Below, piece by piece: positions 3,629 to 34,509 of a stretch of 64,000 nt of DNA. The notes below the pieces were generated by a model. That model was given only the letters and a program-made list of their open reading frames with translations. It made no database searches and was not told the DNA's origin. The stretch comes from Glycocaulis alkaliphilus. Lineage in GTDB: Bacteria > Pseudomonadota > Alphaproteobacteria > Caulobacterales > Maricaulaceae. Both the position numbers and the translations under genes were made by a program. Position 1 is the first letter of the stretch. Every line of letters begins with the position of its first letter. Where the stretch lies: assembly GCF_004000605.1 (NCBI RefSeq), contig NZ_CP018911.1, positions 248,001 through 312,000 of the forward strand, read 5' to 3'.

Positions 3629-3697
3629 CTGAAGCCTCCTGTGTCTTGGTGTAGACGCAGAATTGGCCGACAAGATCAGGGGCGTCGTGGGGAATAA

Positions 3698-13466: not shown

Positions 13467-13478
13467 CCGGCGCGCTCC

Positions 13479-18882: not shown

Positions 18883-18895
18883 GTCCCTCACCCAG

Positions 18896-18932
18896 GCGCG
18901 CCCGGAAATACCGAGGGGTTTTCCGGGCGCGC
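18896..18932 (+). terminator. Long perfect hairpin between TonB receptor and glycosidase
   Basis: GCGCGCCCGGAAA and TTTCCGGGCGCGC form a 13-base-pair stem (18896-18908 and 18920-18932). No T run follows, so it is more likely a partial terminator or an mRNA-stabilising hairpin that lowers expression of the downstream genes relative to the receptor. Confidence 0.5.
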
Positions 18933-18979
18933 AAGCCCTGCCGCAACAGACACCCTCCCTATGAGAACTGGATACTGCC

Positions 18980-19912
18980 ATGCTGCGATCATTACTTGCT
19001 CCATGCCTGCTTTCCCTCGTCCTGACGGCGGCTGCCCATGCTCAAGGGGCGCTGGTCAGCGCAGACCAGTGCGCCCAGCAGCGTCTGGAGCGCTGTCAGC
19101 TTGCCGAGGGGCTGGAATATCACCGTATTGAGAGCTCTGATCCCGCAGAGCGGGTCGTTCACGTGCTTGTCGCCGATATGAGCCATCCCGGCCTGAGCGT
19201 AGGCTTGACCGAGCCGGACCCGTCAGCGGGCCTGCAATACCGGGCGATGCGCCTGAGTACCTTCCTTGAGCGCACCGGGGCGCTGGCCGCGATCAATGCC
19301 AGCTATTTCCTGCCCTTTGCTGGCGGCAGTGACGGCGGGGATGACTACATCCCGCAGGAGTTCGCCGCCGCTGAAGTGTCCGGCGCGGTCTATGTGGACG
19401 GTGAAACCGTGTCCCCGGTCGACTGGGAGACCGACCGGCGTGTCGAAGCCATTATCTGCTTTGAGCCTGGTCACGCGGTACTTGTCGCCGGCCAGATCTG
19501 CCCGGACGGCTTTGCCAGCGGCCTGTCATCAGGCCCGCACCTGATCGAGAACGGCGAGGCCAAGACGCCTCGGCAGCGTCCCGGCCAGCCAGAAGCCGAT
19601 CCCGCCGTGCCCGGTCCTGGTGGTCCGCGCACCGCCATTGGCCTCGCTGATAACGGTACCCGTCTCATCATGGTGGTCGCAGACGGGCGCCAGCCGGGAT
19701 ACTCGCAAGGCATGAACCATGCCGCGCTCATCGAGCTGTTCCAGGCTTATGGCGCCCATGACGCGATGAGCCTTGATGGCGGTGGCTCCTCCACCATGGG
19801 CGTGCGCGGAGAGACAGGCCCAGTGATCATGAACCGGCCGATCCACACCCGCGTACCGGGCCGGGAGCGCCCGCTCGGCAACCACATCGCGATCTTCGCG
19901 GTGAGCGAATAG
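18980..19912 (+). CDS. Secreted phosphodiester glycosidase family protein (NAGPA domain)
   Basis: This 310-residue exported protein has a clear signal peptide (MLRSLLAPCLLSLVLTAAAH, cleavage after AHA). The phosphodiester-glycosidase (NAGPA/DUF2233) fold is shown by AAINASYFLP, GPRTAIGLADNGTRLIMVVA, DGRQPGYSQGM and the hallmark SLDGGGSSTMGV. Members hydrolyse GlcNAc-1-phosphodiesters; bacterial ones are poorly characterised and may trim cell-wall or glycolipid phosphodiesters. It lies about 100 bases after the TonB receptor and 19 bases before the propeller-like gene, so the three probably form one uptake unit. Confidence 0.88.
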   Translation: MLRSLLAPCLLSLVLTAAAHAQGALVSADQCAQQRLERCQLAEGLEYHRIESSDPAERVVHVLVADMSHPGLSVGLTEPDPSAGLQYRAMRLSTFLERTGALAAINASYFLPFAGGSDGGDDYIPQEFAAAEVSGAVYVDGETVSPVDWETDRRVEAIICFEPGHAVLVAGQICPDGFASGLSSGPHLIENGEAKTPRQRPGQPEADPAVPGPGGPRTAIGLADNGTRLIMVVADGRQPGYSQGMNHAALIELFQAYGAHDAMSLDGGGSSTMGVRGETGPVIMNRPIHTRVPGRERPLGNHIAIFAVSE

Positions 19913-19931
19913 GGGCATGAGGAAAGACATG

Positions 19932-20831
19932 ATGTCCATCCGTACCTGCACCGCCGCGCTTGCGTGCATTCTGGCCAGCGCCGGCGCGGTCTCCGCCCAG
20001 CAGGCACAAGGCTGGCGCTCGATCATTCCCGAGTACGAGCCGGTGGAAGTCCGGCAACTCAGTGCCGAACTCCAGCGCGTCTATGAGGCGCCTGAGGCCC
20101 GGCAGGGTGTGGCCATTGAGGGCGATCATTTCTACGCTGTGGTGAACACCGTAATCGCCAGATACGAGGTGGAGAGCGGGGAGCTGGTCACGCGCTGGAT
20201 CGGTCCGCGCGGCGGGCTGATCCGCCATCTCAATTCCTGCTATGCGGAAAATGCACGCCTGATCTGCGCCAATTCCAACTTCCCCGAACTGCCGCAGGCC
20301 AGCTCGGTGGAGATTTACGACGCCGAGACCCTCGAACACCTCGAAACCCATAGCCTGGGTGTGATGGATGAGGGTTCGTTTGTCTGGTTTGAAGCCTATG
20401 GCGAGGGCTGGATCGCCGGTTTCGCCCATTATGACGGCGTGGGCGGGGTGGGTTTCAAGGACTCCACCCATTCCGGCATCGTTACCTTCGACCGCAACTG
20501 GCGGCGCACCGGCGGCTGGCTGATCCCGCAAAGTGTGCAGGAGCGCATGAGCCCGCATGCCGCGTCTGGCGGCTCCATCGGTGATGATGGCCTGCTCTAC
20601 CTGTTCGGTCACTCGGCGCCGGAAATGTACGTGCTGGCACGCCCGTCCATGGGCCCGGCGCTCATTCACGTCGCAACCATCGATATTGACGCCGCCGGGC
20701 AGGCCTTCGCCTTTGACCGCGCGAACCCGGGCATTCTCTACGCGATTGACCGGCCCACGGGCACGGTGCGCCGCTTCCGCATGCCGGAGATCATCGCCGA
20801 CCATGCTGATGTGCGCCGCTTTGAGCGGTGA
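19932..20831 (+). CDS. Exported propeller-like hypothetical protein
   Basis: This is a roughly 299-residue protein with an N-terminal signal sequence (MSIRTCTAALACILASAGAV, cleavage near SAQ). Starts at 19917, 19929 and 19932 are possible; GAGGA at 19919-19923 is best spaced for 19932. The mature part repeats short strand blocks such as GDHFYAVVNTVIARYEVESG, GSFVWFEAYGEGWIAGFAHY and DGLLYLFGHSAPEMYVLARP, as expected of a beta-propeller. No catalytic motif or named domain is recognised. It is last in the TonB receptor/glycosidase unit and ends before a terminator-like hairpin. Confidence 0.7.
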   Translation: MSIRTCTAALACILASAGAVSAQQAQGWRSIIPEYEPVEVRQLSAELQRVYEAPEARQGVAIEGDHFYAVVNTVIARYEVESGELVTRWIGPRGGLIRHLNSCYAENARLICANSNFPELPQASSVEIYDAETLEHLETHSLGVMDEGSFVWFEAYGEGWIAGFAHYDGVGGVGFKDSTHSGIVTFDRNWRRTGGWLIPQSVQERMSPHAASGGSIGDDGLLYLFGHSAPEMYVLARPSMGPALIHVATIDIDAAGQAFAFDRANPGILYAIDRPTGTVRRFRMPEIIADHADVRRFER

Positions 20832-21111: not shown

Positions 21112-21768
21112 CTATCCTGTGGCGTCGCGCTTCTCGCCGATATGGACCAGGCTCTCCATATCTATGCGCTCATCACCGCCGCATACGCCGATAACCAGGG
21201 CCTCGTCACACCCTTCGCCGGCCAGGTAGGCGTGGCCCATAGAGCTGTCGAGATAGAAGGATTCCCATTTCTCCAGCACGACCGGGTCGTAGAACTCGGT
21301 ATGCACCTCGACGCGGCCTTCGAGCACGAAGATGAACTCTTCCCCGCCATGGCGTATCAGATCCCCGAACTCCTCGACCGAGCGGGCGCGCACCTTCGTG
21401 AAAATGGGGATCATGCTCTTCTTGCGCAGTTCGGTGCACAGATAGAAATAATCATAATTGTCCGTCTCGACGCGCATGCCGGTATCCAGGGTGCCCTTGG
21501 CGCGCAGCCCCGTCACCGGACCGGAGGCGGGTGCGCTGTCCTGCGCGGGCACGCTGAACAGGTCTGACAGCGGGATGTTCAGCCGCTGGCTGAGCTGCAA
21601 GAGCTTGTCATAGGTCAGGGTCAGCCGGTCATGCTCGATCTTGGACAGGGTTGAGAGCGGAATGCCGGAGCGCTCGCTCATCTCCTTCAGGGTCCAGCCA
21701 TTACGCTGCCGTATGGCGCGCACGACCTGACCGAGTGTCGTGTGGGTGTCGGCGGCGGAATTGTTCAT
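21112..21768 (-). CDS. XRE-cupin transcriptional regulator of the D-glutamate locus
   Basis: This 218-residue regulator has an N-terminal XRE helix-turn-helix (TLGQVVRAIRQRNGWTLKEM, then SGIPLSTLSKIEHDRLTLTY) and a C-terminal cupin sensor domain (HGGEEFIFVLEGRVEVHTEF). The frame extends to 21879, but the ATG at 21768 has AGGGG seven bases upstream and gives the normal start MNNSAADTHTTLG. XRE-cupin regulators commonly control amino-acid or amine catabolism by binding a metabolite in the cupin. It is divergent from the TonB receptor at 22060, and repeated operator-like sequences lie between them. Confidence 0.9.
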   Translation of the reverse strand: MNNSAADTHTTLGQVVRAIRQRNGWTLKEMSERSGIPLSTLSKIEHDRLTLTYDKLLQLSQRLNIPLSDLFSVPAQDSAPASGPVTGLRAKGTLDTGMRVETDNYDYFYLCTELRKKSMIPIFTKVRARSVEEFGDLIRHGGEEFIFVLEGRVEVHTEFYDPVVLEKWESFYLDSSMGHAYLAGEGCDEALVIGVCGGDERIDMESLVHIGEKRDATG

Positions 21769-21929
21769 TGCAGGCCCCTGATTCATCTGATTCTCAAAAT
21801 AACCAGAACCGACCCGTTCGGAAAACCGATTTCCATCCGGGACTTGCAAATCTCCGGTCAAACTCGCTGTCCCACCCACCGGTAACCCTGACAGGGCAAG
21901 GTGATCACCCCGCGCGAGACAGAATTATC

Positions 21930-21962
21930 CTGATTAGAAAATTTTGTTGACAATTCTCTTAT
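21930..21962. promoter_or_regulatory. Two operator-like sites upstream of TonB receptor
   Basis: Site A (21930-21943) reads CTGATTAGAAAATT. Site B (21951-21962) reads CAATTCTCTTAT, whose complement is ATAAGAGAATTG. Both match the palindrome-like sequence upstream of the D-aminoacylase gene (CTGATAAGAGAATTG on the minus strand near 32419-32442). TTGACA at 21946-21951 could be the -35 element and overlaps the end of site B, so binding there would be expected to affect transcription. The adjacent XRE-cupin protein is the obvious candidate binder. All of this is inference from sequence. Confidence 0.5.
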
Positions 21963-22059
21963 TGGGATCGACTTTCGGTTCACAGGCCTGATCTGATTGC
22001 CGCAACCAGTCTGTCAGGGCGCAACCATGAACGCAAAGTTCAGGAGGGGAGACTACATC

Positions 22060-24417
22060 ATGATCAGGCATTCACTACGCGCGGGGCTTCTGGGCACGGC
22101 CGCCACGGCCATGTGCGCACCGGCACTCGCTTTTCAGGACGCGCCCGACGAAGAGGCCGTTGCCACCTCGCAGGCGCGCGAGGTCATCACTGTCACCGCG
22201 CGTTTCCGCGAGGAGTCGGTCCAGAACATCGGTGCCAGTATTGCCGGCCTATCGGAAACGCAGATCCGCGAGCAGGGCATCTATGACATCGAGGATCTGG
22301 CGCGAACCGTCGCCGGTCTGGAAAATGTCCGGTCGCGCCCGAACGCCAACAATATCGCCATTCGCGGCGTGCGTACGGCGGGCAGCGGCTATGAAACCAG
22401 CTCAGTGTTCAGCGTCTTCCTGGACGATGTGTCGGTGACCGGCGCGGGCAGCATCCGCGATTTCAGCTCTGTTGACCTCAATCGTATCGAGGTTATCCGC
22501 GGGCCTCAGCCCACCCTGTTTGGTGAAGGCGCTGTTGGCGGCGTGATCCGCTATTTTACCAACGACCCTGATCTGGACGGCCCGACCTTTGAGGGTGTGG
22601 CGTCAGGGCGCTACGAGACGATCACCGATGGCGGCTTTGCACACAGCGTGGACAATGCACTGTCGGTAATCCTTGTTCCCGGGCGTCTGGGCATCCGCGT
22701 TTCGGGCTTCCACCGTCAGGATGACGGGTTCATCGACAATCCCAGCGAAGGCTCTGACGTCAACGACTTCCAATCCTATGGCGGACGTGCGGTTTTGCTG
22801 GCGCGCTTTTCGGACGATCTCGAGCTCCGGCTCTCCGCGTTCGTGACGCGCGACGAGGCAGGTGAAGCAACGCAGGTGGATCCGGGGTCTGACCCCCGCG
22901 ACCTGACATATTCCGCTTCGCCGCTCTCTGGCACCTATATCGATGATTTCGATCTTTACTCGGCTCGGGTTTCCTATAGCGGGCTGGACTGGCTCGATAT
23001 CACCTCGATCACCGGCTATTATAACAGGCGCACCAGTTCCGCGCTGTTTAGCGCCGGCAATTCCTTTGGTCTCGCCCCGTTCTTCCCGACCGTCGATACG
23101 ACTACCTACAATACGGGTTCGGGTAACACCCGGCAGTGGTCGCAGGAATTCCGGTTCGTCTCCAATCTTGACGGCCCGCTCAACTTCACATCGGGCCTCT
23201 ACTACCGCGACCGTGAGAGCAGCAGCGGCCAGTTTTTGACCTGTGTGGGGTGCGCGGCCGTGACCACGCCCCAGAGCGAGAGCCTGGCAAGCCGCCTCTC
23301 GACAACCCACACCGAGCAGTATTCGGCGTTCGTGGAACTGACCTACGAGTTGACGGACCGGCTGCGCCTTATCGGTGGCGTGCGCTATGTGAACGACACC
23401 GTCACGAGTGCCTTGCAGCTGGATAACACGGTGAACCTAGTTCCGCAGTTTGACGGCAGCGGCAACCTGATCCCGTGGACCCAAGCCAATCCGATCGGTT
23501 TTGTCAGCACGCTGGACGTCCTCAGGGGCGCGGGCGTTGGCACGGAGTTCCGTTTTGATCTGGAAGAATTCCTGCCGCGCGTCGGGATAGAGTTCGATCT
23601 GTCCGATTCCATCCTGCTTTATGCGAACTATGCTCGCGGCGTACGTAATGGCGGCATCGGCAATGCGCTGGCGGCGCTGGGCGCGTCCGGCGGCAATCAG
23701 GATGTTTTCCTGGCCAACCTGTCCTTTGACGCCGACGAGGTGATCTCCATCGATGGCGGTGTGAAGGCGTCCTGGTTCGGCGGCAATCTCGTCACCAATC
23801 TGGGTGTGTTCCACACCACCTATAACGACACCCAGATCCAGGTGAACACGCCGGCGAACAACACCGTGAACGGTCCGCAGCAGACCATTCTCGGGCTGGA
23901 GTTTGAAACCACCCTCCAGGTCAATAGCGACCTTTCCACCTTCTTCAACGCGTCAGTTATTGATGCGGAATTCCAGGAAGGCATGCTCATCACCTCTGCG
24001 CCGGGCGGGGTAGTCGGGCCGTTTGATCTGCGCAAAGGCAACAGCCCGTCCAACATTCCGGGGCTCACCCTGACGGCCGGCTATTCCTACTCGCGCCCGG
24101 TTGGCGGGGGAGAGTGGTCGTTCAACTCGAGCGGCTCCTTCCAGTTCATCGATGAGCGCTATTCCAACGTTCAGAACTATCGGTCAGCCCGGCTGAACAC
24201 GCTCGAATACCTCAATTTGCGTGCCGGCTTCTCGAACGATGTCTGGTCGATTGATCTGTATGGTGCGAACCTGCTGAACGATGTCGAAGCAATCAGCATC
24301 GGCTCAAACGCCCTCCAGCAATTCATCACGCCTGAAGGCGAGCTGGATGCGCCGATCATTGCAACGAGTGTCAACCGGCCCCGCAGCGTCGGCATAAGCG
24401 TACGCCTTCGCTACTAG
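22060..24417 (+). CDS. TonB-dependent receptor of the D-glutamate locus
   Basis: This 785-residue outer-membrane receptor starts at the ATG at 22060, where AGGAGGGGAG precedes it; the frame also contains ATG 22027 and a TTG at 21997. A signal peptide (MIRHSLRAGLLGTAATAMCA, cleavage after ALA) is followed by a TonB box (VITVTARFREE), a plug (DLARTVAGLENVRS, RIEVIRGPQPTLFGEGAVGG) and a barrel ending in RLRY. It resembles FecA/siderophore-like receptors in form. Its place ahead of a serine hydrolase and the DgcA/DgcN genes suggests import of D-amino-acid-containing peptides or cell-wall fragments, but the substrate is inferred from context only. Confidence 0.92.
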   Translation: MIRHSLRAGLLGTAATAMCAPALAFQDAPDEEAVATSQAREVITVTARFREESVQNIGASIAGLSETQIREQGIYDIEDLARTVAGLENVRSRPNANNIAIRGVRTAGSGYETSSVFSVFLDDVSVTGAGSIRDFSSVDLNRIEVIRGPQPTLFGEGAVGGVIRYFTNDPDLDGPTFEGVASGRYETITDGGFAHSVDNALSVILVPGRLGIRVSGFHRQDDGFIDNPSEGSDVNDFQSYGGRAVLLARFSDDLELRLSAFVTRDEAGEATQVDPGSDPRDLTYSASPLSGTYIDDFDLYSARVSYSGLDWLDITSITGYYNRRTSSALFSAGNSFGLAPFFPTVDTTTYNTGSGNTRQWSQEFRFVSNLDGPLNFTSGLYYRDRESSSGQFLTCVGCAAVTTPQSESLASRLSTTHTEQYSAFVELTYELTDRLRLIGGVRYVNDTVTSALQLDNTVNLVPQFDGSGNLIPWTQANPIGFVSTLDVLRGAGVGTEFRFDLEEFLPRVGIEFDLSDSILLYANYARGVRNGGIGNALAALGASGGNQDVFLANLSFDADEVISIDGGVKASWFGGNLVTNLGVFHTTYNDTQIQVNTPANNTVNGPQQTILGLEFETTLQVNSDLSTFFNASVIDAEFQEGMLITSAPGGVVGPFDLRKGNSPSNIPGLTLTAGYSYSRPVGGGEWSFNSSGSFQFIDERYSNVQNYRSARLNTLEYLNLRAGFSNDVWSIDLYGANLLNDVEAISIGSNALQQFITPEGELDAPIIATSVNRPRSVGISVRLRY

Positions 24418-24440
24418 GCCTCGTGCATGTTCCGGTGTGC

Positions 24441-24464
24441 GGCGGAAGGCTCCGGCCTTCCGCC
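24441..24464 (+). terminator. Intra-operon hairpin after TonB receptor
   Basis: GGCGGAAGG and CCTTCCGCC form a nine-base-pair stem with a six-base loop right after the receptor stop. There is no T run, so partial termination or mRNA protection, giving more receptor than downstream enzyme, is the likely effect. Confidence 0.45.
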
Positions 24465-24547
24465 GCCACTGGCCGGCAGCCTGCGTTAACGCAACGATAC
24501 CCGAAGCGGCCAACAGCGGCCGGAACTGGGACAGGGAAGGAAAAGTG

Positions 24548-26545
24548 ATGGTAAGGCACTGGATGCGGGGCGCGCTTGGCGCCCTGCTGGCGGGGTTCAC
24601 CCTGTCGGCAGCCACAGCTCAGGTACCCGATCAGCCTGAGGCTGAAGGTGAGGTGTTGCAATTGCCGGTGCCCGAGGCGCCGCCGGAGGCAACTGCCACC
24701 GCATCCGGCCCTGTCGACCCGGCTGACCTTGAAAGCTGGCTTGACGGCTTCATGCCCTACGCGCTGGCCCAAGGCGACATTGCCGGCGCCATCGTAACGG
24801 TGGTGGCAGACGGTGAAATCCTGCACTCGCGCGGCTATGGCTATGCCGATGTGGAAACCCGCACCGCGATTGATCCTGAAACAACGCTCTTCCGCCCCGG
24901 CTCGATCTCCAAACTCGTCACCTGGACGGCTGTCATGCAGCTCGTCGAGCAGGGGCTGATCGATCTGGATGCTGACATCAACACCTATCTCGATTTCGAG
25001 GTCACGGGTGTCGAGCGCCCGATCACCATGCGTCATCTGCTTACCCATACACCGGGCTGGGGTGAACAGGTGCGTGCCCTCATCATGGATGACCCGGAGC
25101 GGCTGCAACCGCTGGACGAATATGTCCGCAACAACATCCCGGCTGCGGTCTACCCGGCCGGTGAGGTGCCTGCGTACTCCAATTACGGCACGGCGCTGGC
25201 CGGTCATGTCGTGGCAGAGGTATCAGGCCAGTCATTCGACGATTATGTCGACGAGCACATCTTTGCGGCGCTCGGCATGGAGTATTCCTCCATGCGTCAG
25301 CCTCTGCCCGAACACCTGCAAGGCCTGATGTCCTCGGGCTATATGCGCGGTTCGGATGGCGAAGGACGTGCTTTCGAGATCGTGACGGCTGCCCCGGCGG
25401 GCTCCATGTCGGCCAGTGGCAATGACATGGCCCGCTTCATGATCGCCCACCTCAATCGCGGCGAAGGGTTGCTGTCACCGGAAACGACTGAGCAGATGCA
25501 CACCACGGCCGACCGCAAACTCACCGGCGTCAATGCCATGCTGCTCGGCTTTTACGAGCAGAACCGCAATGGTCACCGCATTATCGGCCATGGCGGCGAC
25601 ACCACGCTGTTCCATTCCAACCTGCACCTGTATCTCGACCATGGCGTCGGCCTGTTCATTTCGATGAACAGCACCGGGCGTAGTGGTGCCACGGGGCGTG
25701 TCCGCCAGGCACTGTTTGAAGGCTTCACGGACCGCTACTTCCCGGCTGAAGCTGGCGAAGACCTGCCGACGCTGGACACGGCCGAAGAGCATGGCCGCAT
25801 GCTGGTTGGCAATTATGTGATCTCCCGGCGTGCCCACCAGAATTTTGTTGCGGCGACGGCTCTGCTGACCCAGCCCAGCGTGACCATGAATGCCGACAAT
25901 GAAATCAGCCTGTCCATCCTGACCGATGCGTCGGGCACGCCGTTGCGTTTCCGCGAGGTGGAGCCCTTCGTCTGGCAGCAGGTGAACGGGGTCGAGCGCC
26001 TGTCTGCCCGGATTAACGAGAATGGCGAGGTGGAGATGTTCTCCGCTGCCTTCTTCGCGCCCTTCATGATGTTCACGCCGGTCGAGTGGTGGCGCAATGG
26101 CGCGCTTCTCATGCCGCTGGCGGGCATTGCCGCCGCCGCGCTTCTGCTGACCGTACTGTTCTGGCCGGTCCGTGCTATCGTCCGCTGGCGGTTCAGGACG
26201 CGCTTTGCGCTCACTGGCCGTCAGGCAATGGCCTACCGGCTCTCGAACATCGGTGCCTTGCTGCCTCTGGTTTATGCCGCTGGCTGGCTGCTCCTCATCA
26301 CACACCTGATGGGTGAGCTGAACAGGCTTGATGGGCGCATGGATGGCATGATCGTCTTCATGCAGTTCTTGTCTGTCCTGCCGGTACTAGCCCTGCTGAT
26401 CGCTATCTGGAACGCCTTCGTCGTATGGACGGGCGGTGCAAGCTGGTTTGCCCGGCTCTGGAGCCTTGTGCTCGTTGCGTCCACGCTGGTGCTGATCTGG
26501 TTCGTGATAGCCGCCGGCTTCTTCAATTTCGGTCTGACCTACTAG
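24548..26545 (+). CDS. Serine hydrolase (beta-lactamase family) with C-terminal membrane domain
   Basis: This 665-residue exported enzyme starts at 24548 (GGAAGGAAAAG upstream; the frame from 24437 is an over-extension) with signal peptide MVRHWMRGALGALLAGFTLS. Residues about 45-370 form a class-C beta-lactamase/D-alanyl-aminopeptidase fold with SxxK in PGSISKLVTW, YxN in PAYSNYG and HGG in IIGHGGDTTL. A beta-rich linker and about five hydrophobic helices (from WWRNGALLMPLAGIAAAALL onward) anchor it in the inner membrane. Such enzymes act on D-amino-acid peptides. In this operon it could release D-residues from imported peptides in the periplasm. Confidence 0.88.
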   Translation: MVRHWMRGALGALLAGFTLSAATAQVPDQPEAEGEVLQLPVPEAPPEATATASGPVDPADLESWLDGFMPYALAQGDIAGAIVTVVADGEILHSRGYGYADVETRTAIDPETTLFRPGSISKLVTWTAVMQLVEQGLIDLDADINTYLDFEVTGVERPITMRHLLTHTPGWGEQVRALIMDDPERLQPLDEYVRNNIPAAVYPAGEVPAYSNYGTALAGHVVAEVSGQSFDDYVDEHIFAALGMEYSSMRQPLPEHLQGLMSSGYMRGSDGEGRAFEIVTAAPAGSMSASGNDMARFMIAHLNRGEGLLSPETTEQMHTTADRKLTGVNAMLLGFYEQNRNGHRIIGHGGDTTLFHSNLHLYLDHGVGLFISMNSTGRSGATGRVRQALFEGFTDRYFPAEAGEDLPTLDTAEEHGRMLVGNYVISRRAHQNFVAATALLTQPSVTMNADNEISLSILTDASGTPLRFREVEPFVWQQVNGVERLSARINENGEVEMFSAAFFAPFMMFTPVEWWRNGALLMPLAGIAAAALLLTVLFWPVRAIVRWRFRTRFALTGRQAMAYRLSNIGALLPLVYAAGWLLLITHLMGELNRLDGRMDGMIVFMQFLSVLPVLALLIAIWNAFVVWTGGASWFARLWSLVLVASTLVLIWFVIAAGFFNFGLTY

Positions 26546-26563
26546 GAAGGGGCACTGCACATC

Positions 26564-27580
26564 ATGTCCGTTGCCAAGCCGCTATCCCTATCGGTCCGGA
26601 TTGATCCGGTCCGCCTGAAAACACCGTTCCGTATCACGGGCCATGTGATGGACAAGGTCGATCTGGTGGTCTGTACGCTGGCGCGTGCCGGTCATCAGGG
26701 TCGCGGCGAGGCGACAGGCGTCTATTATCACGCCGAGACCGGCGCCAGCATGCTGGCGCAGATCGAGGCCGTCCGGGGTCGTATTGAGGCGGGCATTACC
26801 CGCGAGGCGCTGCAGACGTTGCTGCCCGCTGGCGGGGCCCGTAACGCGGTAGATTGCGCGCTCTGGGATCTGGAGTGTGCCGAGTCCGGGGAAGCGGCGT
26901 GGAAACGGGCTGGCCTGCCCGCGCCGTCCAACCTGCTCACCACCTTCACTCTGGGCGCCGACAGCCCTGAGGTGATGGGTGCCAGGGCGGCGGGGCTGAC
27001 ATATGCAAAGGCCCTCAAGCTCAAGCTCATCGGGGATGGACTCGATGCTGAGCGCGTTCGGGCCGTGCGGGCAGCAGCGCCCGATGTCTGGATCGGTGTG
27101 GACGCCAACCAGGCGTTTGACCGCGCAGGCACGGAAGCCTTGATGCCGGTTCTGGTCGAGGAGAAGGTAAGCCTTCTGGAGCAACCCTGTGCGATCGGCG
27201 CTGATGACAGCCTGATCGGGCTGAACTCGCCCATCCCGCTGGCGGCAGACGAAAGCGCGCAGACCAGCGCCGACATCGCCCGGCTCGCGCCCATCTACGA
27301 CATTATCAATATCAAACTCGACAAGTCCGGCGGTCTCACCGAAGGGCTGAAAATGGCGCATCTCGCGCGCGAGCACGGGATGGGTGTCATGGTCGGCAAC
27401 ATGGTCGGCACCTCGCTCTCGTGCGGCCCGGCGGCCATTGTCGGACAACTCTGCGATGTGGTGGACCTTGATGGTCCCTGGCATCTGTCGGCCGACCGGG
27501 ACCCGGCGGCTGTTTACGAGAATGGCTATCTCTTGTGCCCGCCTCGCGGCTGGGGTCTGCCGGAAAGGAAAGCGGCCTGA
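26564..27580 (+). CDS. dgcA: N-acetyl-D-glutamate racemase DgcA (enolase superfamily)
   Basis: This 338-residue enolase-superfamily enzyme belongs to the dipeptide-epimerase-like group. The active-site residues are visible: KxK in KALKLKLIG, metal ligands in VDANQAF, LLEQP and AADES, and the second lysine in NIKLDKSGG. Orthologues paired with a DUF1611 protein have been shown to racemise N-acetyl-D-glutamate to N-acetyl-L-glutamate in the DgcN-DgcA pathway. Here its stop overlaps the start of that partner by one base. A true L-Ala-D/L-Glu epimerase is the alternative and would also fit cell-wall peptide use. Confidence 0.85.
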   Translation: MSVAKPLSLSVRIDPVRLKTPFRITGHVMDKVDLVVCTLARAGHQGRGEATGVYYHAETGASMLAQIEAVRGRIEAGITREALQTLLPAGGARNAVDCALWDLECAESGEAAWKRAGLPAPSNLLTTFTLGADSPEVMGARAAGLTYAKALKLKLIGDGLDAERVRAVRAAAPDVWIGVDANQAFDRAGTEALMPVLVEEKVSLLEQPCAIGADDSLIGLNSPIPLAADESAQTSADIARLAPIYDIINIKLDKSGGLTEGLKMAHLAREHGMGVMVGNMVGTSLSCGPAAIVGQLCDVVDLDGPWHLSADRDPAAVYENGYLLCPPRGWGLPERKAA

Positions 27581-28620
27581 TGAGTGTTCTGTCCCTTCCG
27601 CGGCCCTATCTGCTGTTTCTGGGCGACGTGACCGACCTGTCCTACGCCAAGACGGCGGCGGGTCTGCGTGACTGGGTGCCAGACCAGTGCGTCGCCGAAT
27701 GGGCGCTGCCGGGCAATCCGCTGCGTCTGGGCCTGCCCGTCATGAACCCGGCGGAGGCTGCGAGGGCGGGTGCGCGCGCGCTGGTAATCGGCGCAGCGAC
27801 CATGGGCGGCGCCTTGCGTCCGGCCTGGGTGCCGGCCCTTCTGGAGGCCATGGAAGCCGGTCTCGACATCATTTCCGGCATGCACATGCCGCTGGCCAGC
27901 ATTCCGGATCTTAAAAGCGCCGCCGAGCGGCTTGGACGCCAGCTCATTGATGTCCGGCGCCCGCCGGCTGACCTCCCGCTTGGCACGGGCCGCAAACGCA
28001 CCGGCAAGCGGCTGCTGACCGTCGGTACCGATTGCGCGCTGGGCAAGAAATACACCGCTCTGGCCTTGGCCCAGGCGTTCACGCGCGCCGGAGCCAAGGC
28101 AACCTTCCGCGCCACCGGCCAGACCGGCATACTCATCGCGGGCGGCGGTGTACCGATGGACGCGGTGGTCAGCGATTTTCTGGCGGGTGCTGCCGAGGCT
28201 CTGTCTCCCGATGCGCCAGCCGACCACTGGGACATTGTCGAAGGGCAGGGTTCGCTCTTTCACCCCTCCTACGCAGGCGTTTCGCTGGGCCTCCTGCACG
28301 GCAGCCAGCCCGATGTGCTGGTGATCTGCCATGAGTTTGGCCGCAAACGGATTATCGGTCTCGACGCGCACTACCCCATTCCCTCCATCGAGGAGGTTAT
28401 CGAGCTCAACCTGATGCATGCGCGCCGGGTGAACCCCGATGTGCGGGTGGGCGGGATCAGCCTGAACACCTCCAAGCTGTCAGAAGACGAGGCACGGCGC
28501 GCCATCGAGACTGAAAGCCGCCGGACCGGCCTGCCATGCGCCGATCCGATCCGCGGCGGCGCAGCGTTCGACCGGCTTGTGGAGGCTTGCCTGGAACCCG
28601 AAGCCGCCCTCGCCCAATGA
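27580..28620 (+). CDS. dgcN: D-glutamate N-acetyltransferase DgcN (DUF1611)
   Basis: This 346-residue DUF1611 protein starts at 27580 (MSVLSLPRPYLLFLGDVTDL), where the ATG overlaps the DgcA stop. It shows the family's P-loop-like GTDCALGKKYTALAL (about residues 147-161), then GQTGILIAGGGVPMDAV, DIVEGQGSLFHPSYAGV and CHEFGRKRIIG. DgcN transfers acetyl from acetyl-CoA to D-glutamate, feeding DgcA. The tight coupling with dgcA and the surrounding D-amino-acid genes supports this assignment over other DUF1611 roles. It is cytosolic. Confidence 0.85.
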   Translation: MSVLSLPRPYLLFLGDVTDLSYAKTAAGLRDWVPDQCVAEWALPGNPLRLGLPVMNPAEAARAGARALVIGAATMGGALRPAWVPALLEAMEAGLDIISGMHMPLASIPDLKSAAERLGRQLIDVRRPPADLPLGTGRKRTGKRLLTVGTDCALGKKYTALALAQAFTRAGAKATFRATGQTGILIAGGGVPMDAVVSDFLAGAAEALSPDAPADHWDIVEGQGSLFHPSYAGVSLGLLHGSQPDVLVICHEFGRKRIIGLDAHYPIPSIEEVIELNLMHARRVNPDVRVGGISLNTSKLSEDEARRAIETESRRTGLPCADPIRGGAAFDRLVEACLEPEAALAQ

Positions 28621-29720
28621 GCGCGGCGCCCAGCCTCTTTCAGCGCCTGATCTTGCCGGGTCTTGCCTTCAAGGCAGTGGTGATCGGCGGAGGCTATGCC
28701 ACGGGGCGCGAACTGGTTGAGTATTTCATGCCGTCCGGCCCGGTGGGCGGATTGCTGGGGCTGGCGCTGGTCACCGCATTGTGGAGCGGTATCTGCGCCC
28801 TGACCTTCGTGTTCGCGCATGCCACGCGCAGCGGGAACTATCTGACCTTCTTCAAGGCGCTGCTGGGGCCGTTCTGGCCGCTCTTCGAGATCGCCTATCT
28901 GCTCTTTCTGTTCCTGATCCTCGCCGTGTTCGGCGCGGCAGCAGGCGAAATCGGCGCAGCGCTGTTCGGCTTGCCCAACCTTGTCGGATCGGTGGCGCTC
29001 GCGCTCTCCATCCTGGTCTTTACGGCCCTCGGCCAGGAGAGCGTTGAGCGGCTTTTCAAATACGCCTCGCTCTTCCTCTACCTGGTCTATCTCGTCTTCG
29101 TGGTGATGTGCTTCACCCAATTTGGCGGGGACATTCTCGCTGGCCTTGATGCCGGTATTCCGGCCACGGGCTGGGTGTCCGGCGGCATCACCTATGCGGG
29201 CTATAACGTGATCGGTGCGGTGGTGATCCTGCCCATGCTGCGCCATCTGACCAGCCGCAAGGACGCCGTGATTGCCGGCACGCTGGCCGGACCGCTGGCC
29301 GCGCTTCCGGCCATTCTCTTCTTTGCCTGCATGATCGCCTTCTATCCGGAGATTTCGCAAGCGGCCCTGCCGTCAAACTATATCCTCGAACGTCTCGGCT
29401 CGCCGGTCTTCCAGATGGCGTTCCAGTTCATGGTCTTTGTGGCCCTGGTGGAAACCAGCGTCAGCGCGGTCCACGCTGTCAATGAACGTATCTCGGCGGT
29501 GCGGCCACGCCCCATCGGGATACGTACCCGTCTTGCATTCACTGGGGCGCTGCTGCTCGCCGCCATGGTGGTCGCGGACCGGTTCGGCCTCATCGCCCTG
29601 ATCGCCAATGGCTATCGCATGCTGGCTTTTGCGATCATCGCCGTCTTCGTCCTGCCGCTCCTGACGCTCGGCGTCTGGAAGCTGATGAGGACAGGCTCTA
29701 CTGGCGCACCCAGTTCATAG
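28617..29720 (+). CDS. YkvI-type membrane transporter (APC superfamily-like)
   Basis: This 367-residue integral membrane protein starts at the ATG at 28617, overlapping the dgcN stop (ATGA). About ten hydrophobic helices are visible, beginning LILPGLAFKAVVIGGGYATG, a motif typical of the YkvI family related to LeuT/APC transporters, followed by GRELVEYFMPSGPVGGLLGL. Its coupling to dgcN suggests it carries D-glutamate or the released amino acid across the inner membrane. The substrate has not been shown for this family as far as I know, so this is inference from operon context. Confidence 0.82.
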   Translation: MSAAPSLFQRLILPGLAFKAVVIGGGYATGRELVEYFMPSGPVGGLLGLALVTALWSGICALTFVFAHATRSGNYLTFFKALLGPFWPLFEIAYLLFLFLILAVFGAAAGEIGAALFGLPNLVGSVALALSILVFTALGQESVERLFKYASLFLYLVYLVFVVMCFTQFGGDILAGLDAGIPATGWVSGGITYAGYNVIGAVVILPMLRHLTSRKDAVIAGTLAGPLAALPAILFFACMIAFYPEISQAALPSNYILERLGSPVFQMAFQFMVFVALVETSVSAVHAVNERISAVRPRPIGIRTRLAFTGALLLAAMVVADRFGLIALIANGYRMLAFAIIAVFVLPLLTLGVWKLMRTGSTGAPSS

Positions 29721-30174
29721 GACGGCCTTCGCATCCAGTGGCGTGGAACTCGGCGACATTGTTCTCCATGTTCCGTTCAAGGCGGCTCAGATCATTGCGC
29801 GCTTGAGAAATCTCTGCCTGCAGGGTGCTTCTGCGGCGTTCAGCTTGAGCCAGTCTGCTCCGTGCATTGTCAAGCTGGCTGGCCAACGCAGCCGCTCCTG
29901 CTCCCGGCACCTCCTGAAGCACACCAACCAGCCGGCCTGGCCGGCGCGGCGGCACAGGGCCGTGGGGCAGAACCGATAATGTCTCCAGCCTGCGAACCTC
30001 GGCGCGTAGTGCCGGTATCTCGGCTTCAATGGCGACGAGAGACTGCTCAGCTCTCCTCCAGTCCCGGCCCGCTTGTGCTTGCTGGGCGCTATCGAGCTGG
30101 ATATTGCGCTTTATCCGTTCGCAGACTGGCGGTTCGGGTTGAGCTTGTTTCGGGTTCTTGGATACAGGCTTCAT
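29698..30174 (-). CDS. Coiled-coil hypothetical protein
   Basis: This is a roughly 158-residue protein with heptad-like helices (AEQSLVAIEAEIPALRAEVR and LASQLDNARSRLAQAERRRS) separated by a proline-rich break, and no signal peptide. The frame reaches 30204, but the ATG at 30174 has GAGG eight bases upstream. Its 3' end overlaps the convergent transporter gene by 23 bases. It ends with CEGRPMNWVRQ. The long lysine- and glutamine-rich N-terminus and coiled coil suggest a structural or scaffolding role. No family is recognised. Confidence 0.55.
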   Translation of the reverse strand: MKPVSKNPKQAQPEPPVCERIKRNIQLDSAQQAQAGRDWRRAEQSLVAIEAEIPALRAEVRRLETLSVLPHGPVPPRRPGRLVGVLQEVPGAGAAALASQLDNARSRLAQAERRRSTLQAEISQARNDLSRLERNMENNVAEFHATGCEGRPMNWVRQ

Positions 30175-30292
30175 ATTGCGGGCCTCGACGATTAGGCTGT
30201 GCATTATAGAGCCGTCGCGGGAGGGGGCGGATTAGTTCCGTATGTGCTCTTTCGATTGAAGAACTTGCCGGAATTTCAGCGGGGACAGCGGC

Positions 30293-30829
30293 ATGAAACC
30301 GGCATTTCTCACGGCGGTTATAGGGGCGTTTGCCGCTGCGGCCTGCGTTGCAGAGGAAGAGCGTGCGCCAGACTGGGTGGAGACACCGGAAATGGAGGCA
30401 GCGCGGCTCCTTCACGAGGCAGCGTGCGCGAACTGGCCTGATCCTCACGCACTTTACGATGCAGCCTGGCAAGGCGATCTGGGCGCTATTGATTGCGAAA
30501 TAGCCAGTGACGAATGGCGCTTTGCCGCCTCCACCGGCTATGAATATGTGGATTATTACCGGCTTCAAACAGGCTACCGGCGCTGGCAGGTTAGCGGGGA
30601 GCGCGATGAGCGTGCGCTAACGGCGGCCCGGAACCTGCCGCGCTTCGAGGTGGCAGGCGAGGTGGCCTATCACGGCTATCGCCTGCGCAAGGCCAGCAAT
30701 CCCGATGAGCCGCTATTGCCCCACAATCCGTGCTGGGAACTGAACGATATCCAGCTTGAACTGGTCCGGGTGGCGATCCCGGATGAGGAGAGCGCCCCCT
30801 GCCTCGAAAGCTGGGGGATTGACGACTGA
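30293..30829 (+). CDS. Putative lipoprotein, hypothetical
   Basis: This 178-residue protein starts MKPAFLTAVIGAFAAAACVA. The hydrophobic stretch ends in AAAC, which could serve as a lipoprotein signal, making the Cys the lipidated N-terminus. Two further pairs of Cys (ACANW, AIDCE, NPCWE, APCLE) could form disulfides. A GGGGAC stretch precedes the ATG. It is convergent with the D-aminoacylase gene, only three bases separating the ends, and has no recognised domain. Function is unknown. Confidence 0.6.
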   Translation: MKPAFLTAVIGAFAAAACVAEEERAPDWVETPEMEAARLLHEAACANWPDPHALYDAAWQGDLGAIDCEIASDEWRFAASTGYEYVDYYRLQTGYRRWQVSGERDERALTAARNLPRFEVAGEVAYHGYRLRKASNPDEPLLPHNPCWELNDIQLELVRVAIPDEESAPCLESWGIDD

Positions 30830-30832
30830 TTC

Positions 30833-32389
30833 CTACTCCGCCCCGCTCGCCACTGTCCCCCGGACCGGGCGGCCCGGCAGGACGGAGGTGTCCAGCTCGC
30901 CGCCATCGACCAGCACCGTGCCGTTCACGATCACATACTCAAAGCCGACGCTCGCCTGTGCGGGCCGTTCAAACGTCGCGCGGTCGGCCACGGTTTCGGG
31001 GTCGAACACCACGATATCGGCGTCCATGCCGGGCTGCAGGCGGCCCTTGCGGCGCATTTGCGGCACGGCGTCTGAAAGGATGCGGGCAGGATAGAAGCTC
31101 GCCTTGGCGACGGCTTCCGGCCAGTCGATCACGCCGCGCTCTCGCGCATAGATGCGCAGGAAGCGGCCATAGGTGCCAGCGCTGCGCGGGTGGGCATGGG
31201 CGTCCTCCGGGATCGGCCAGATGTCACCATCAAGACGCTCGCTGCCGACAGACCATGGCCCGCCATCAGAGGCGATTGCCCCGCCGGGAAAGAGGATGGA
31301 CCTGTCCAGATAGGCCTGATGCTCCGGGCGCTCATCGGGGTTCAGGAAGTGGACCACAATGCCGGTGCCCGGCGCATTTTCCTGCAGATCGTTAAAGCGT
31401 TCCTCGTCCAGCGGCACGCCCTGAACGGTGAAGTCGGAATACTCGATACCGCCCATGCGGTCGCGCCAGCCTTCGCCCCGGAACATGGCCGCGCCAATGC
31501 CGGTTGCGCCTGCGCCATAGGGGTAGGCTTCCACGGTGATGTTCACGCCATTGGCCTGCGCCGTCTCGATCATGTCGGCGATACGGTCGATGTCCGAAAG
31601 GCTGATCGAGTTGAGATGGCTGATATGCATGTGCGCGCCGGTACCGGCAGCGACAGCCACCATCTCCTGAAAGCCCTCGAACGAGCTTTGCGGCTCTATC
31701 GCGCTCAGGAAGCGTGCATGGGTGAAGGTGGGAACATCGCGCGCTGCGGCCAGCGCGTTGACGGCGTGATACTCGCCCCGGCTGATGCCGGGCGCGTAGC
31801 CCAGCAGGATGCCGATGCCCAGCCCGCCCTCTTCCAGCCCGGTATTGATATGGCGCAGGATTGCTGACAGGCGCTCATTGTCGGCCAGTTCGGTCTGCCA
31901 GCGTGGATCGCCGATATAGCGGAAGAACCAGTATGTGTCGGCATGCGGCTCGACATCCATGACCGCAGCGATGCGTGCATGCGCCCAGCTGGACGCCGCG
32001 CCGTAATTGATCGGACGGCCTTGTTCGGCGGCGCGGGCGTAGAAGTCCGACACGGGCAGCACACCGGATTCCAGCTCCAGCGTGGTCGTCACCCCGTCCA
32101 GCGCCTGCATGCGTCCGGCTGGCGTATCCTGTCCGTGTCCGTGCAGATCGATAAAGCCGGGCGCCACGATGCGGCCCGCCGCGTCAATCGTGCGCGTGCC
32201 TTCCAGCGGGGTTTCGGAGATGATCGCTATCTCGTCGCCCCGGATACCGACATGGCGGATCGCGTCCAGCCCGGTTTCCGGGTCGATGACCCGGCCATTG
32301 TTCAGAACAAGGTCATAATCCTGCGCGAACGCGGCCGGGCTAAGCGCCAGAGCGCCTGCCAGGGCCAACTTCGTGATGATACCAGTCAT
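30833..32389 (-). CDS. Exported N-acyl-D-amino-acid deacylase (D-aminoacylase family)
   Basis: This is a roughly 518-residue amidohydrolase. The start at 32389 (MTGIITKLALAGALALSPAA) is chosen because GGGGAG lies seven bases upstream and it exposes a signal peptide (cleavage after AFA); the open frame continues to a TTG at 32420. Metal-binding features are HGHGQD after GFID, ELESGV, FTHAR, HMHISHLNS and IASDGGPW, as in D-aminoacylases. It would cleave N-acyl-D-amino acids or D-terminated peptides in the periplasm. An operator-like palindrome shared with the TonB receptor lies in its promoter, tying it to the same regulon. Confidence 0.88.
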   Translation of the reverse strand: MTGIITKLALAGALALSPAAFAQDYDLVLNNGRVIDPETGLDAIRHVGIRGDEIAIISETPLEGTRTIDAAGRIVAPGFIDLHGHGQDTPAGRMQALDGVTTTLELESGVLPVSDFYARAAEQGRPINYGAASSWAHARIAAVMDVEPHADTYWFFRYIGDPRWQTELADNERLSAILRHINTGLEEGGLGIGILLGYAPGISRGEYHAVNALAAARDVPTFTHARFLSAIEPQSSFEGFQEMVAVAAGTGAHMHISHLNSISLSDIDRIADMIETAQANGVNITVEAYPYGAGATGIGAAMFRGEGWRDRMGGIEYSDFTVQGVPLDEERFNDLQENAPGTGIVVHFLNPDERPEHQAYLDRSILFPGGAIASDGGPWSVGSERLDGDIWPIPEDAHAHPRSAGTYGRFLRIYARERGVIDWPEAVAKASFYPARILSDAVPQMRRKGRLQPGMDADIVVFDPETVADRATFERPAQASVGFEYVIVNGTVLVDGGELDTSVLPGRPVRGTVASGAE

Positions 32390-32511: not shown

Positions 32512-33813
32512 ATGAAAAAACCGATTGTGATTATCACCTATGCCCGCAGCCTCATGTCGTTGACGGTGGCGGAATCCTGCCGTGAACTTGCTGGCCGCAT
32601 CGTCGCGGTCGACAGTGTTGACCTGACGCCTCTGGGTTTCTCGAAGAATTGTGATGAGGCGGCCGTAACAGCCGATTGCCGCAGTGATCCGCAAGGCTTT
32701 GTCGACGGCCTCGTCGAAGTGTGTGCCCGCTTTGCAGGCGAACCGATCATCATCATGCCGGTATTCGAGGAGATGGAACTGCTGGCGCGTGAGCGGCACC
32801 GGTTTCCCGCCAATGTCACAATCGCAGCGCCTGAGGCAGAGGCTATCGGCAAGGTCACGCCCAAGCACAAGCTGGCCGAGACCATTTCCGGCACGGACAT
32901 TCCTGCCCCTGCTACCGAGATCATAGGAGATGGCAAATCCGGGCTGAACGAGCCGGAGGGCTTCACCTATCCCTTCCTCGTCAAACCGTCTGAAGGTGCC
33001 GGCGGTCGCGGCATCAGCAAGGTGGAAGGCCGGGATGAGCTGGATGCCTATGCGGCGGGTCTTCGTGAGAAGGATGTCATCCTGGCCCAGTCCCTTGCCC
33101 CGGGTGAAGACTATTGTGTCTCCGCTCTGTGCCGGAAGGGCGAGCTGGTGATCTGCTCGGCCTACACCAATCTGGAGCAATTTCCCAAGGAGCACGGGGC
33201 CGGTGTGGTGCGTGAAACGGTGGATGCCGCGCCCTTTGTGGAAGCGATACGCAAAATTGCGCGCGAAACCGGGTGGGACGGCATCTTTGAGGCCGATTTC
33301 ATGTGGACGGGTGAGGAGGGCGATACGCCGCTCCTCATCGAGATCAATGCCCGCTTCTGGGCCGGCGTGCGTCATTCCAAACTGTCCGGCGTCGACTATC
33401 CCCGCCTGCTGCTGGAGCAAGTCCTGTTTGGCGAGATCCGTTCCGACCCCGGAGAGCCGGAAATCGGCCATCGCTCGAAGGTACCCATGATCTGGATGCC
33501 CTCTGCCGTGACGGAGGCTTTTTCCGAGACGGAATATGCCGAAAAGCTGTCCGATGCCTGGGAGCACCTTCAGACTTCGGGCGAAAGCCTGCTGGAGCGC
33601 GTGGGCCGTTTTCTTGGAACGCTGGGCAGCGCGAAATCGGCCGGTGAAGCGATAGACGACATAATGTTCCGGCTCACCGACAGGTCTGATCTTGATATCG
33701 ATCTGATCGCCGAAGATGATCCGCGCTCCGCATTGGGAGTGCTGTTCATTGCCTCCCATCTCGCACGCCACGGCAAGCTGCCGCCGGAAATCTCCTACAA
33801 GCCCATGGACTAG
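32512..33813 (+). CDS. ATP-grasp carboxylate-amine ligase
   Basis: This 433-residue ATP-grasp enzyme has an N-terminal Rossmann-like domain (MKKPIVIITYARSLMSLTVA) and an ATP-grasp core with FLVKPSEGAGGRGISKV, the lid, and the metal-binding LLIEINARFWAG. It belongs with carbamoyl-phosphate-synthase-like and biotin-carboxylase-like ligases that make amide or peptide bonds. It is followed after six bases by a class-I glutamine-amidotransferase-fold hydrolase, so ligation and removal of a gamma-glutamyl-type bond may be paired. An EcfG promoter abuts the start codon. Substrates are unknown. Confidence 0.85.
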   Translation: MKKPIVIITYARSLMSLTVAESCRELAGRIVAVDSVDLTPLGFSKNCDEAAVTADCRSDPQGFVDGLVEVCARFAGEPIIIMPVFEEMELLARERHRFPANVTIAAPEAEAIGKVTPKHKLAETISGTDIPAPATEIIGDGKSGLNEPEGFTYPFLVKPSEGAGGRGISKVEGRDELDAYAAGLREKDVILAQSLAPGEDYCVSALCRKGELVICSAYTNLEQFPKEHGAGVVRETVDAAPFVEAIRKIARETGWDGIFEADFMWTGEEGDTPLLIEINARFWAGVRHSKLSGVDYPRLLLEQVLFGEIRSDPGEPEIGHRSKVPMIWMPSAVTEAFSETEYAEKLSDAWEHLQTSGESLLERVGRFLGTLGSAKSAGEAIDDIMFRLTDRSDLDIDLIAEDDPRSALGVLFIASHLARHGKLPPEISYKPMD

Positions 33814-33819
33814 TCCCTG

Positions 33820-34509
33820 TTGAAACCTGTTATCGGATATATCGGCGCTCCGGACGGTGACCGGCTGGTTGGCGCTCTGACCTCGCTCATCATCCGCCTT
33901 TCGGGTGGCAAGCCGGTCCGCCTGCGTAAACCCCCCGGCACGCAAGAGCGGCGCATTGACGGGCTGATCCTGCTGGGCGGTCTGGATATACACCCCAGCC
34001 GTTACAACGCTGAGATCGAGGTCGAAAGCCAGTTCGACCTGCAGCGGGACGAGCTTGAGCTGGCGTGGCTGGATGTCGCGTTTGAGCGGTCCATACCCGT
34101 TATGGGCATCTGCCGCGGGCTGCAAATGCTCAATGTGAAGGCGGGCGGCGATCTTCATCAACGCCTCGACCCTGAGGTAACGAGAAACTGGCCGAGCGGC
34201 CCGGTCGGCTATGCGCTGTTCCGCAAGCCGGTCGAGGTGTTACCTGAAACCTTTCTGGCCCGCGTGTTTGGTCCAGGACCGCTGCGGGTGAACAGCCTGC
34301 ACCGGCGTGCCGTGCGTAATGTGGCGCCCGGTTTCAGGGCGGCGGCCTGCGGAGAAGGGGGCGGCGTGCAAGCCATCGAGGCGCAGGGAGATGTGCTGCG
34401 TTTCGGTGTCCAGTTTCACCCTGAGCTTCTGCCTCATCGCAAGGATATGCGCCGTCTGTTCCGGCGGTTTGTCGATGCCTGCAGGACCCCGCAAAAGACA
34501 GATAATTGA
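33820..34509 (+). CDS. Gamma-glutamyl-gamma-aminobutyrate hydrolase-like protein (class I GATase fold)
   Basis: This 229-residue peptidase C26 protein has catalytic Cys in MGICRGLQMLN, the oxyanion-region GLDIHPSRYN and the His/Glu pair in GVQFHPEL. The start is a TTG at 33820 giving LKPVIGYIGAPDGD (Met in vivo), six bases after the ATP-grasp stop. PuuD-like enzymes hydrolyse gamma-glutamyl amides; the pairing with an ATP-grasp ligase suggests it acts on that ligase's product or supplies ammonia to it. Both genes should be expressed from the EcfG promoter upstream. Confidence 0.82.
   Translation: MKPVIGYIGAPDGDRLVGALTSLIIRLSGGKPVRLRKPPGTQERRIDGLILLGGLDIHPSRYNAEIEVESQFDLQRDELELAWLDVAFERSIPVMGICRGLQMLNVKAGGDLHQRLDPEVTRNWPSGPVGYALFRKPVEVLPETFLARVFGPGPLRVNSLHRRAVRNVAPGFRAAACGEGGGVQAIEAQGDVLRFGVQFHPELLPHRKDMRRLFRRFVDACRTPQKTDN

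Follow-up and report, generated by a model that had tools for sequence, protein, structure and literature searches.

The subject of this analysis is a seven-gene locus in a 64,000-nucleotide stretch of Glycocaulis alkaliphilus DNA (contig NZ_CP018911.1, positions 248,001 to 312,000; referred to as the window, in whose numbering coordinates are given). An original prediction had read the locus as an outer-membrane-to-cytosol route for D-glutamate or D-peptides built on the enzyme pair DgcA-DgcN. All seven genes that it named are present where it had placed them:

21112..21879, minus strand: XRE-family regulator, divergent from the receptor gene, with the true start probably internal.
22060..24417, plus strand: TonB-dependent receptor, type A (open reading frame (ORF) open from 21997; ATG at 22060 chosen, with a signal-like N-terminus).
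24548..26545, plus strand: SerH, a membrane-anchored, DL-peptidase-like S12 serine hydrolase (ORF open from 24437; ATG at 24548 chosen).
26564..27580, plus strand: DgcA-like enolase-superfamily racemase of the module type (G26, Y55, Q183, N279).
27580..28620, plus strand: DgcN-like DUF1611 N-acetyltransferase of the module type, with I254 in place of the canonical R254 (numbering from 27595).
28617..29720, plus strand: APC-superfamily-like inner-membrane transporter (Tra).
30833..32389, minus strand: AmiH, a putatively exported amidohydrolase of the D-aminoacylase type (ORF open from 32422; ATG at 32389).

The short overlaps proposed for dgcA, dgcN and the transporter gene were measured as one base (dgcA ends at 27580, where the ATG of dgcN begins) and four bases (from 28617, the first base of the transporter gene, to 28620, the last of dgcN). 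The regulator matched HTH_19 (45.1 bits) and HTH_3 (43.5 bits), in line with its assignment to the XRE family; the cupin half of the proposed XRE-cupin architecture was not borne out to the same degree, its Cupin_2 match of 25.5 bits lying below the Pfam cut-off of 27.2. The receptor matched TonB_dep_Rec (110.4 bits) and Plug (54.1 bits). The source genome (3.02 Mb, one contig) contains a single DUF1611 match, and PADLOC returned no match for the five window proteins submitted to it.

Co-inheritance of the gene set

Conservation was assessed in two collections of loci (loci and genomes are denoted by L and G numbers). In an order sample of 249 genomes, a search with the window DgcN matched 58 genomes, and 60 of the 75 DgcN places outside the own genome were used as neighbourhoods; the 15 excluded places comprised full-length copies in G410 and G400 together with lower-scoring or partial ones. 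The second collection, the named loci, holds the best 80 of 485 relatives of the transporter, with Sphingomonas and Sphingopyxis over-represented, and 60 of these 80 were treated as full-length (at least 20 kb each). Score thresholds were set by the analyst, homologues being counted at no less than 200 bits for the large S12 hydrolase, 100 bits for AmiH and 120 bits for Xre.

A SerH-type hydrolase was found in 14/15 order loci with the transporter versus 3/45 without it (Fisher p = 5.5e-10, not corrected for kinship), and the three transporter-less exceptions, L090, L094 and L119, all hold other module parts. The same partition was seen for AmiH (11/15 versus 6/45), for a second S12 (DUF3471) hydrolase (10/15 versus 1/45) and for a TonB receptor (15/15 versus 19/45). 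Searching the order sample with the transporter returned 20 genomes, every one of them DgcN-positive, compared with 58/249 overall; 17 of the 22 transporter places lie at most 20 kb from a DgcN match. Orthologues of AmiH with at least 58% identity were always near a DgcN match on the same contig (14/14), while four weaker relatives (41-50% identity) were not.

The named loci extended this picture. Among the 60 full-length ones, SerH was present in 56, DgcN in 52, DgcA in 51, a TonB receptor in 46 and an XRE gene in 45; DgcN, DgcA, SerH and the receptor occurred together in 41 and at least three of the four in 51. All four core partners accompany the transporter in 46 of the best 80 named loci, drawn from Sphingomonas, Sphingopyxis, Lysobacter, Pseudoxanthomonas, Stenotrophomonas, Luteimonas, Steroidobacter, Peristeroidobacter, Rudaea, Glycocaulis and Oceanicaulis, the last two providing the closest transporter relatives among the named matches listed. 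Accessory genes recur as well: a second S12 enzyme (38/60), an M19 dipeptidase (24/60) and a POT peptide symporter (20/60), with further amidohydrolases, an M3 peptidase or an S10 peptidase in single loci. Peptides are the common theme.

Gene order is not constant. The window runs receptor-SerH-DgcA-DgcN-Tra with AmiH on the opposite strand, L066 reads DgcA-DgcN-Tra-AmiH-receptor-SerH, and L093, L095 and L099 read receptor-Tra-DgcN-DgcA-SerH. The genes thus form a genuine co-inherited module whose order has been shuffled across lineages. Conserved co-occurrence in relatives, the lack of which the original prediction had named as speaking against it, is present, and the proposed outer-membrane-to-cytosol module suited to D-residue peptides gains support from this co-inheritance. 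Consistent with the suggestion that such a module had not been described, titles and abstracts in the Creative Commons-licensed PubMed Central literature yielded no published account of it.

The receptor appears to be a swappable part of the module, exchanged between relatives. The window and L064 share a receptor (type A, 85-86% identical), and L064 is collinear with the window through the receptor region. L062 and L063 carry a different one (type B, 28-29% identical to type A) despite closely related modules (DgcN 95% and 94% identical), and DNA similarity of the window to L062, L063, L122 and L123 breaks off at about 22.2 kb and resumes at 24.5-24.7 kb, with flanks alike. Type A is also 47-74% identical to receptors beside a second type of racemase (type II) in L076, L082, L087, L093, L095 and L099, and the type II locus L084 has a type B receptor.

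Hydrolases and transporter

SerH matched Pfam Beta-lactamase (191.4 bits), with the motifs SISK, YSN and HGG and, by hydropathy, four C-terminal transmembrane-like stretches, which agrees with the predicted class-C motifs and membrane anchor. Its best sequence match among solved structures is Pab87 (2qmi). A structural model (pLDDT, the predicted local distance difference test, 86.8) matched S12 enzymes, including Pab87 (Z 38.6, root-mean-square deviation (rmsd) 2.9, 334 residues), the DL-peptidase Lip3 (9sn1; Z 37.8, rmsd 3.9, 436 residues, 20% identity, model range 56-665) and the D-amino acid amidase 2dns (Z 36.5, rmsd 2.8, 328 residues); SurE with D-Leu was present in the Foldseek list. 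By its model, SerH resembles a DL-peptidase-like S12 hydrolase putatively cleaving at D-residues, while resembling other S12 enzymes too.

Three known systems offer a comparison. Lip3 of Paenibacillus is reported in a commentary to cleave DL bonds of a lipopeptide (PMC13188892). It shares with SerH the S12 fold, the S12 motifs and a C-terminal membrane part, the alignment covering SerH 56-665; unlike Lip3, SerH sits in a Gram-negative uptake setting, and its DL cleavage is a prediction. Periplasmic S12 peptidases of the ClbP type likewise combine an S12 domain bearing SxxK and YxN with C-terminal transmembrane helices, although they have three helices (PMC9889268) as opposed to the four such stretches of SerH, around which no biosynthetic cluster was seen. 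The D-Asn residue of ClbP is Asn331. ClbP itself was absent among the 50 SerH structure matches listed, to which we attach no weight. Pab87 is described as specific for the degradation of D-residue peptides, with its gene close to those of a D-aminoacylase and a dipeptide transporter, a neighbourhood akin to that of SerH; it differs in being an archaeal octamer with a lipocalin domain instead of membrane helices (PMC2651629).

The transporter matched no Pfam or NCBIfam family, which leaves the proposed YkvI type a provisional label. Its AlphaFold model (pLDDT 88.4) has an APC-type fold, closest to 9a52, an integrative model of YcsG (Z 31.8), and to the bacterial LAT BASC (9h76; Z 28.4, rmsd 3.2, 347/367 residues). 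LAT2 and Asc-1 are also among the top matches, followed at somewhat lower Z by NRAMP and NSS folds. The modelled protein resembles carriers of single amino acids. In L068 (genome G472), the transporter lies in two frames at 3554-4635, near SerH, XRE and DgcN genes, which suggests a frameshift.

AmiH scored 684.6 bits against NF006560/PRK09061 (cut-off 340), and its hydrophobic N-terminus suggests export. The nearest solved relative is the N-acyl-D-Glu deacylase Bb3285/BbDam (3gip, 107 bits), likewise a D-aminoacylase-like amidohydrolase, and the HxH motif, two further His and an Asp are conserved in module members. In BbDam, the metal site is Cys/His/His (subtype V) with Cys as a metal ligand, and Arg295 binds the gamma-carboxylate (PMC12017989). 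AmiH members differ from it in probably being exported and in lacking the Cys ligand, the corresponding position, directly after the invariant E107, being Ser, Ala or Val. The local alignment to 3gip ends at 3gip residue 289, and ungapped extension places residue 295 at Met/Leu 302.

Substrate of the racemase-acetyltransferase pair

The DgcN-DgcA pathway for D-glutamate was reportedly described by Yu et al. in ISME J in 2023. The module shares its adjacent DUF1611 acetyltransferase and enolase-superfamily racemase, and K152, K154 and K251 of the racemase, which we take to be the catalytic lysines (Lys-x-Lys plus Lys), are invariant in 145/145 DgcA rows. It differs from that pathway in joining the pair to a receptor, an S12 hydrolase, a transporter and an amidohydrolase, in falling below both family cut-offs and in having conserved arginines replaced. 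Specifically, the window DgcA reached 361.4 bits against NF042940 (N-acetyl-D-Glu racemase; equivalog cut-off 400) and the window DgcN 452.1 bits against NF041892 (cut-off 480). Three canonical DgcA controls scored 498-508 bits against NF042940, four other module DgcA proteins 332, 357, 381 and 420 bits, and three module DgcN proteins 445-450 bits against NF041892. The window DgcN also matched PF07755 (247 bits), with 7xrj as the nearest solved chain. Against PRK15129, the L-Ala-D/L-Glu epimerase model, the window DgcA scored 240 bits, below the cut-off of 343.

For a residue-level comparison, canonical rows were taken, by choice, from the 30 best-scoring of 75 DgcN-positive genomes in a class sample of 289 (29 DgcA and 30 DgcN rows usable), and module rows from loci with a transporter match of at least 150 bits, with L067, L080, L090, L094 and L119 added by hand. 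In DgcA, position 26 is Arg in 29/29 canonical and Gly in 77/79 module rows; position 55, Arg (29/29) versus Tyr (78/79); position 183, Glu (29/29) versus Gln (77/79); position 279, Cys (28/29) versus Asn (74/79); and position 29, Arg or Lys throughout the 29 canonical rows versus Phe, Met or Tyr throughout the 79 module ones. In DgcN, Arg254 occupies 30/30 canonical rows and 0/83 module rows, which mostly have Leu (65/83) or Ile (7/83). R26 and R55 would be the capping-loop arginines of canonical DgcA. The region of R26 presumably corresponds to the loop with the Glu-binding arginine of the B. subtilis L-Ala-D/L-Glu epimerase, although the two residues are offset by one position when the sequences are compared by eye without gaps. 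The D301-x-D303 pair, which we assume to bind the N-terminal amine in dipeptide epimerases, is invariant in the module rows and equally in the canonical ones (28/28 rows with letters). The L-Ala-D/L-Glu epimerase 1jpd is among the PDB neighbours of DgcA.

A tree of the 145 DgcA rows, built by a quick method, placed the module racemases in two sets, one of 68 rows (support 100) and one of 11 rows (support 99); on its supported branches the module label has to change twice, and both clades carry the residue switch. The switch would thus either have arisen twice, or an early module-type enzyme would have been acquired by both clades.

After the comparisons with family cut-offs and conserved residues, D-glutamate specificity is no longer the preferred reading. 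Although DgcA and DgcN remain the best NCBIfam matches of the pair, the part of the original prediction that routed D-glutamate through it is weakened, because both cut-offs were missed, the canonical arginines are mostly replaced and the Cys ligand is missing from AmiH. From these sequence features we infer that the amino acid acetylated and racemised is most likely neutral, that is non-acidic, rather than D-glutamate.

Proposed route, alternatives and neighbouring genes

With a probability of roughly 0.6, we read the locus as one form of a module that is widespread in proteobacteria and serves the use of peptides containing D-amino acids, the amino acid most likely being neutral. This sets the computed gene content, co-inheritance, residue switch and model folds beside a route whose substrates, direction of flow, cellular locations and order of steps are all conjectural. 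The TonB receptor would import oligopeptides with D-residues; SerH, anchored in the inner membrane with a periplasmic catalytic domain, would cut them at the D-residues; and AmiH, likewise in the periplasm, would deacylate N-acyl-D-amino acids or L-Xaa-D-Xaa dipeptides, a step for which many relatives also encode M19 dipeptidases and another S12 enzyme. The APC-type transporter would then take up the free D-amino acid, and at the end of the route a neutral D-amino acid would be acetylated and racemised. Overall, the architecture claimed in the original prediction is confirmed and much strengthened, its D-glutamate claim is weakened, and neutral D-amino acids from D-residue peptides are our best guess.

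Several observations weigh against this reading. In the fold comparison of SerH an esterase ranks first (IS11, 7spn; Z 38.9, rmsd 5.0, 419 residues), and class C beta-lactamases reach Z of about 35. AmiH has an Arg at position 311 in 10/11 members and a Lys in the remaining one, near enough for a possible side-chain carboxylate site. The type II racemase of L099, which has none of the arginines, passes the DgcA cut-off (420 versus 400 bits), and that the lost arginines bind the Glu side chain is an assumption based on epimerase structures. Because D301-x-D303 is kept, the module racemase may act on dipeptides. Residues outside the module are mixed: in the order, the 37 DgcA rows from elsewhere than the module have Tyr55 in 20, R55 in 8, Asn279 in 5, R26 in 21, Gly26 in 3 and C279 in 32, and R254 is found in only 13/40 non-module DgcN rows; for this reason Gly26 together with Asn279 is the best mark of the module, and loss of R55 or R254 alone is not. 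Five of the 22 transporter places in the order have no DgcN match within 20 kb, and 8/60 full-length named loci are without DgcN, 2/60 without all four core partners. No deacetylase was seen in the module. Near the module in the order loci, neither Leu/Trp-type dehydrogenases (1/15 with versus 2/45 without the transporter, p = 0.59) nor 2-oxoacid dehydrogenase E1 genes (2/15 versus 1/45, p = 0.15) were significantly enriched, the sole E1 locus among the 45 being L090, which holds other module parts. An association with genes for branched-chain or aromatic amino acids, striking in single loci, thus failed in the counts and is kept as a hint only.

Among the alternatives, use of D-glutamate, or of D-Glu peptides or muropeptides, through DgcN-DgcA to N-acetyl-L-glutamate is what the best NCBIfam matches would suggest; the deacylase kinship of AmiH, its basic residue 311 as a possible carboxylate binder, the three retained lysines and the one type II racemase above the DgcA cut-off also speak for it. 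We nevertheless consider it unlikely, given the two missed cut-offs, the loss of R26, R55 and DgcN R254 in nearly all or all module rows as against their retention in canonical ones, the absent Cys ligand and the presence, in G342 and G472, of a separate DgcN-DgcA pair elsewhere in a genome that holds a module-type locus. The racemase might instead be a dipeptide epimerase, with L-Xaa-D-Xaa imported, DgcA yielding L-L dipeptides and DgcN acting on something else; the invariant D301-x-D303, the neighbour 1jpd and the recurrent M19 dipeptidases and POT symporters would fit. However, that pair is as invariant in canonical DgcA, the PRK15129 score is below its cut-off (240 versus 343 bits), dgcA overlaps dgcN by one base, and the transporter model looks like a carrier of single amino acids, making this account rather improbable.

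Two further explanations concern the purpose of the locus and its unity. If its main role were defence, D-residue antibiotics such as lipopeptides would be destroyed and not eaten, and SerH is indeed like the lipopeptide-cleaving Lip3 in fold and layout. Stenotrophomonas maltophilia P373 is reported to break down iturin, fengycin and surfactin, into free amino acids by the analysis of that study, which does not name the enzymes (PMC12516957), and the module is present in another strain of that species, IAM 12423 (L148). Destruction alone, however, needs no dedicated transporter, receptor, acetyltransferase or racemase, and both an action of the module in S. maltophilia and its presence in P373 are hypothetical; we regard defence as an unlikely main role. 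That unrelated genes merely lie side by side is scarcely credible. TonB receptors are common, 19/45 transporter-less loci having one, yet the same partners recur, variously ordered and with two racemase clades, in lineages as different as Glycocaulis, Sphingopyxis and Stenotrophomonas, and chance is contradicted by the hydrolase and transporter counts, by the 20/20 DgcN-positive transporter genomes and by the 14/14 AmiH orthologues near DgcN.

In soils and the sea, D-amino acids persist as a pool, and many peptide antibiotics are shielded from ordinary peptidases by their D-residues. A narrower version of the reading, which we offer tentatively and with more doubt than confidence, is that this widespread locus for D-peptide utilisation allows growth on nonribosomal peptides with D-residues, among them antibiotics: with the exchangeable TonB receptor, a DL-peptidase in the membrane and an amidohydrolase for N-acyl-D-amino acids would release neutral D-amino acids, for instance D-Leu or D-Val, to be converted to the L-form by a new acetylation-racemisation route that arose twice from DgcN-DgcA. 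If the module is what we propose, Sphingomonas, Sphingopyxis, Lysobacter and Stenotrophomonas would possess a complete uptake-to-metabolism system for D-residue peptides, and transfer of the names DgcA and DgcN would mis-assign a whole subfamily to D-glutamate. Its enzymes would also be candidates for the as yet unexplained breakdown of lipopeptides by S. maltophilia, a hypothetical connection at this stage.

Among genes beside the module, L066 carries at 13242-14357 an enzyme of the Leu/Phe/Trp-dehydrogenase type (NF035922, 320 bits; cut-off 600) that starts six bases after the end of AmiH, with homologues near the module in L150 and L183, and 2-oxoacid dehydrogenase E1 genes lie beside L082, L084 and L090. 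In the own genome there are a single E1 N-domain of a branched-chain 2-oxoacid dehydrogenase, a single homologue of the L066 dehydrogenase and nine M20 matches.

Upstream in the window, 16327-20831 (plus strand) contains a second TonB receptor (TIGR01782, 479 bits) followed by two ORFs that we take to be of a phosphodiester-glycosidase type and NHL-like; in L062-L064, the stretch of about 3 kb covered on that side of the module showed no homologues of these upstream genes. At 32512-34509 (plus strand), opposite AmiH, an ATP-grasp protein gene precedes that of a C26-type protein like gamma-glutamyl hydrolase. This pair was rejected as part of the module, occurring among the 60 order loci only in L062-L064 and being replaced by other genes in the Glycocaulis locus L122. 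Two small ORFs at 29698-30204 (minus strand) and 30293-30829 (plus strand) have no Pfam match; L065 has a class-A-type beta-lactamase2 gene at the corresponding site, with homologues at that place in L122 and L124. Genes for dioxygenases of the RPE65/lignostilbene type were recognised close to the module in three loci, by Pfam in L065 and L094 and by clustering in L119.

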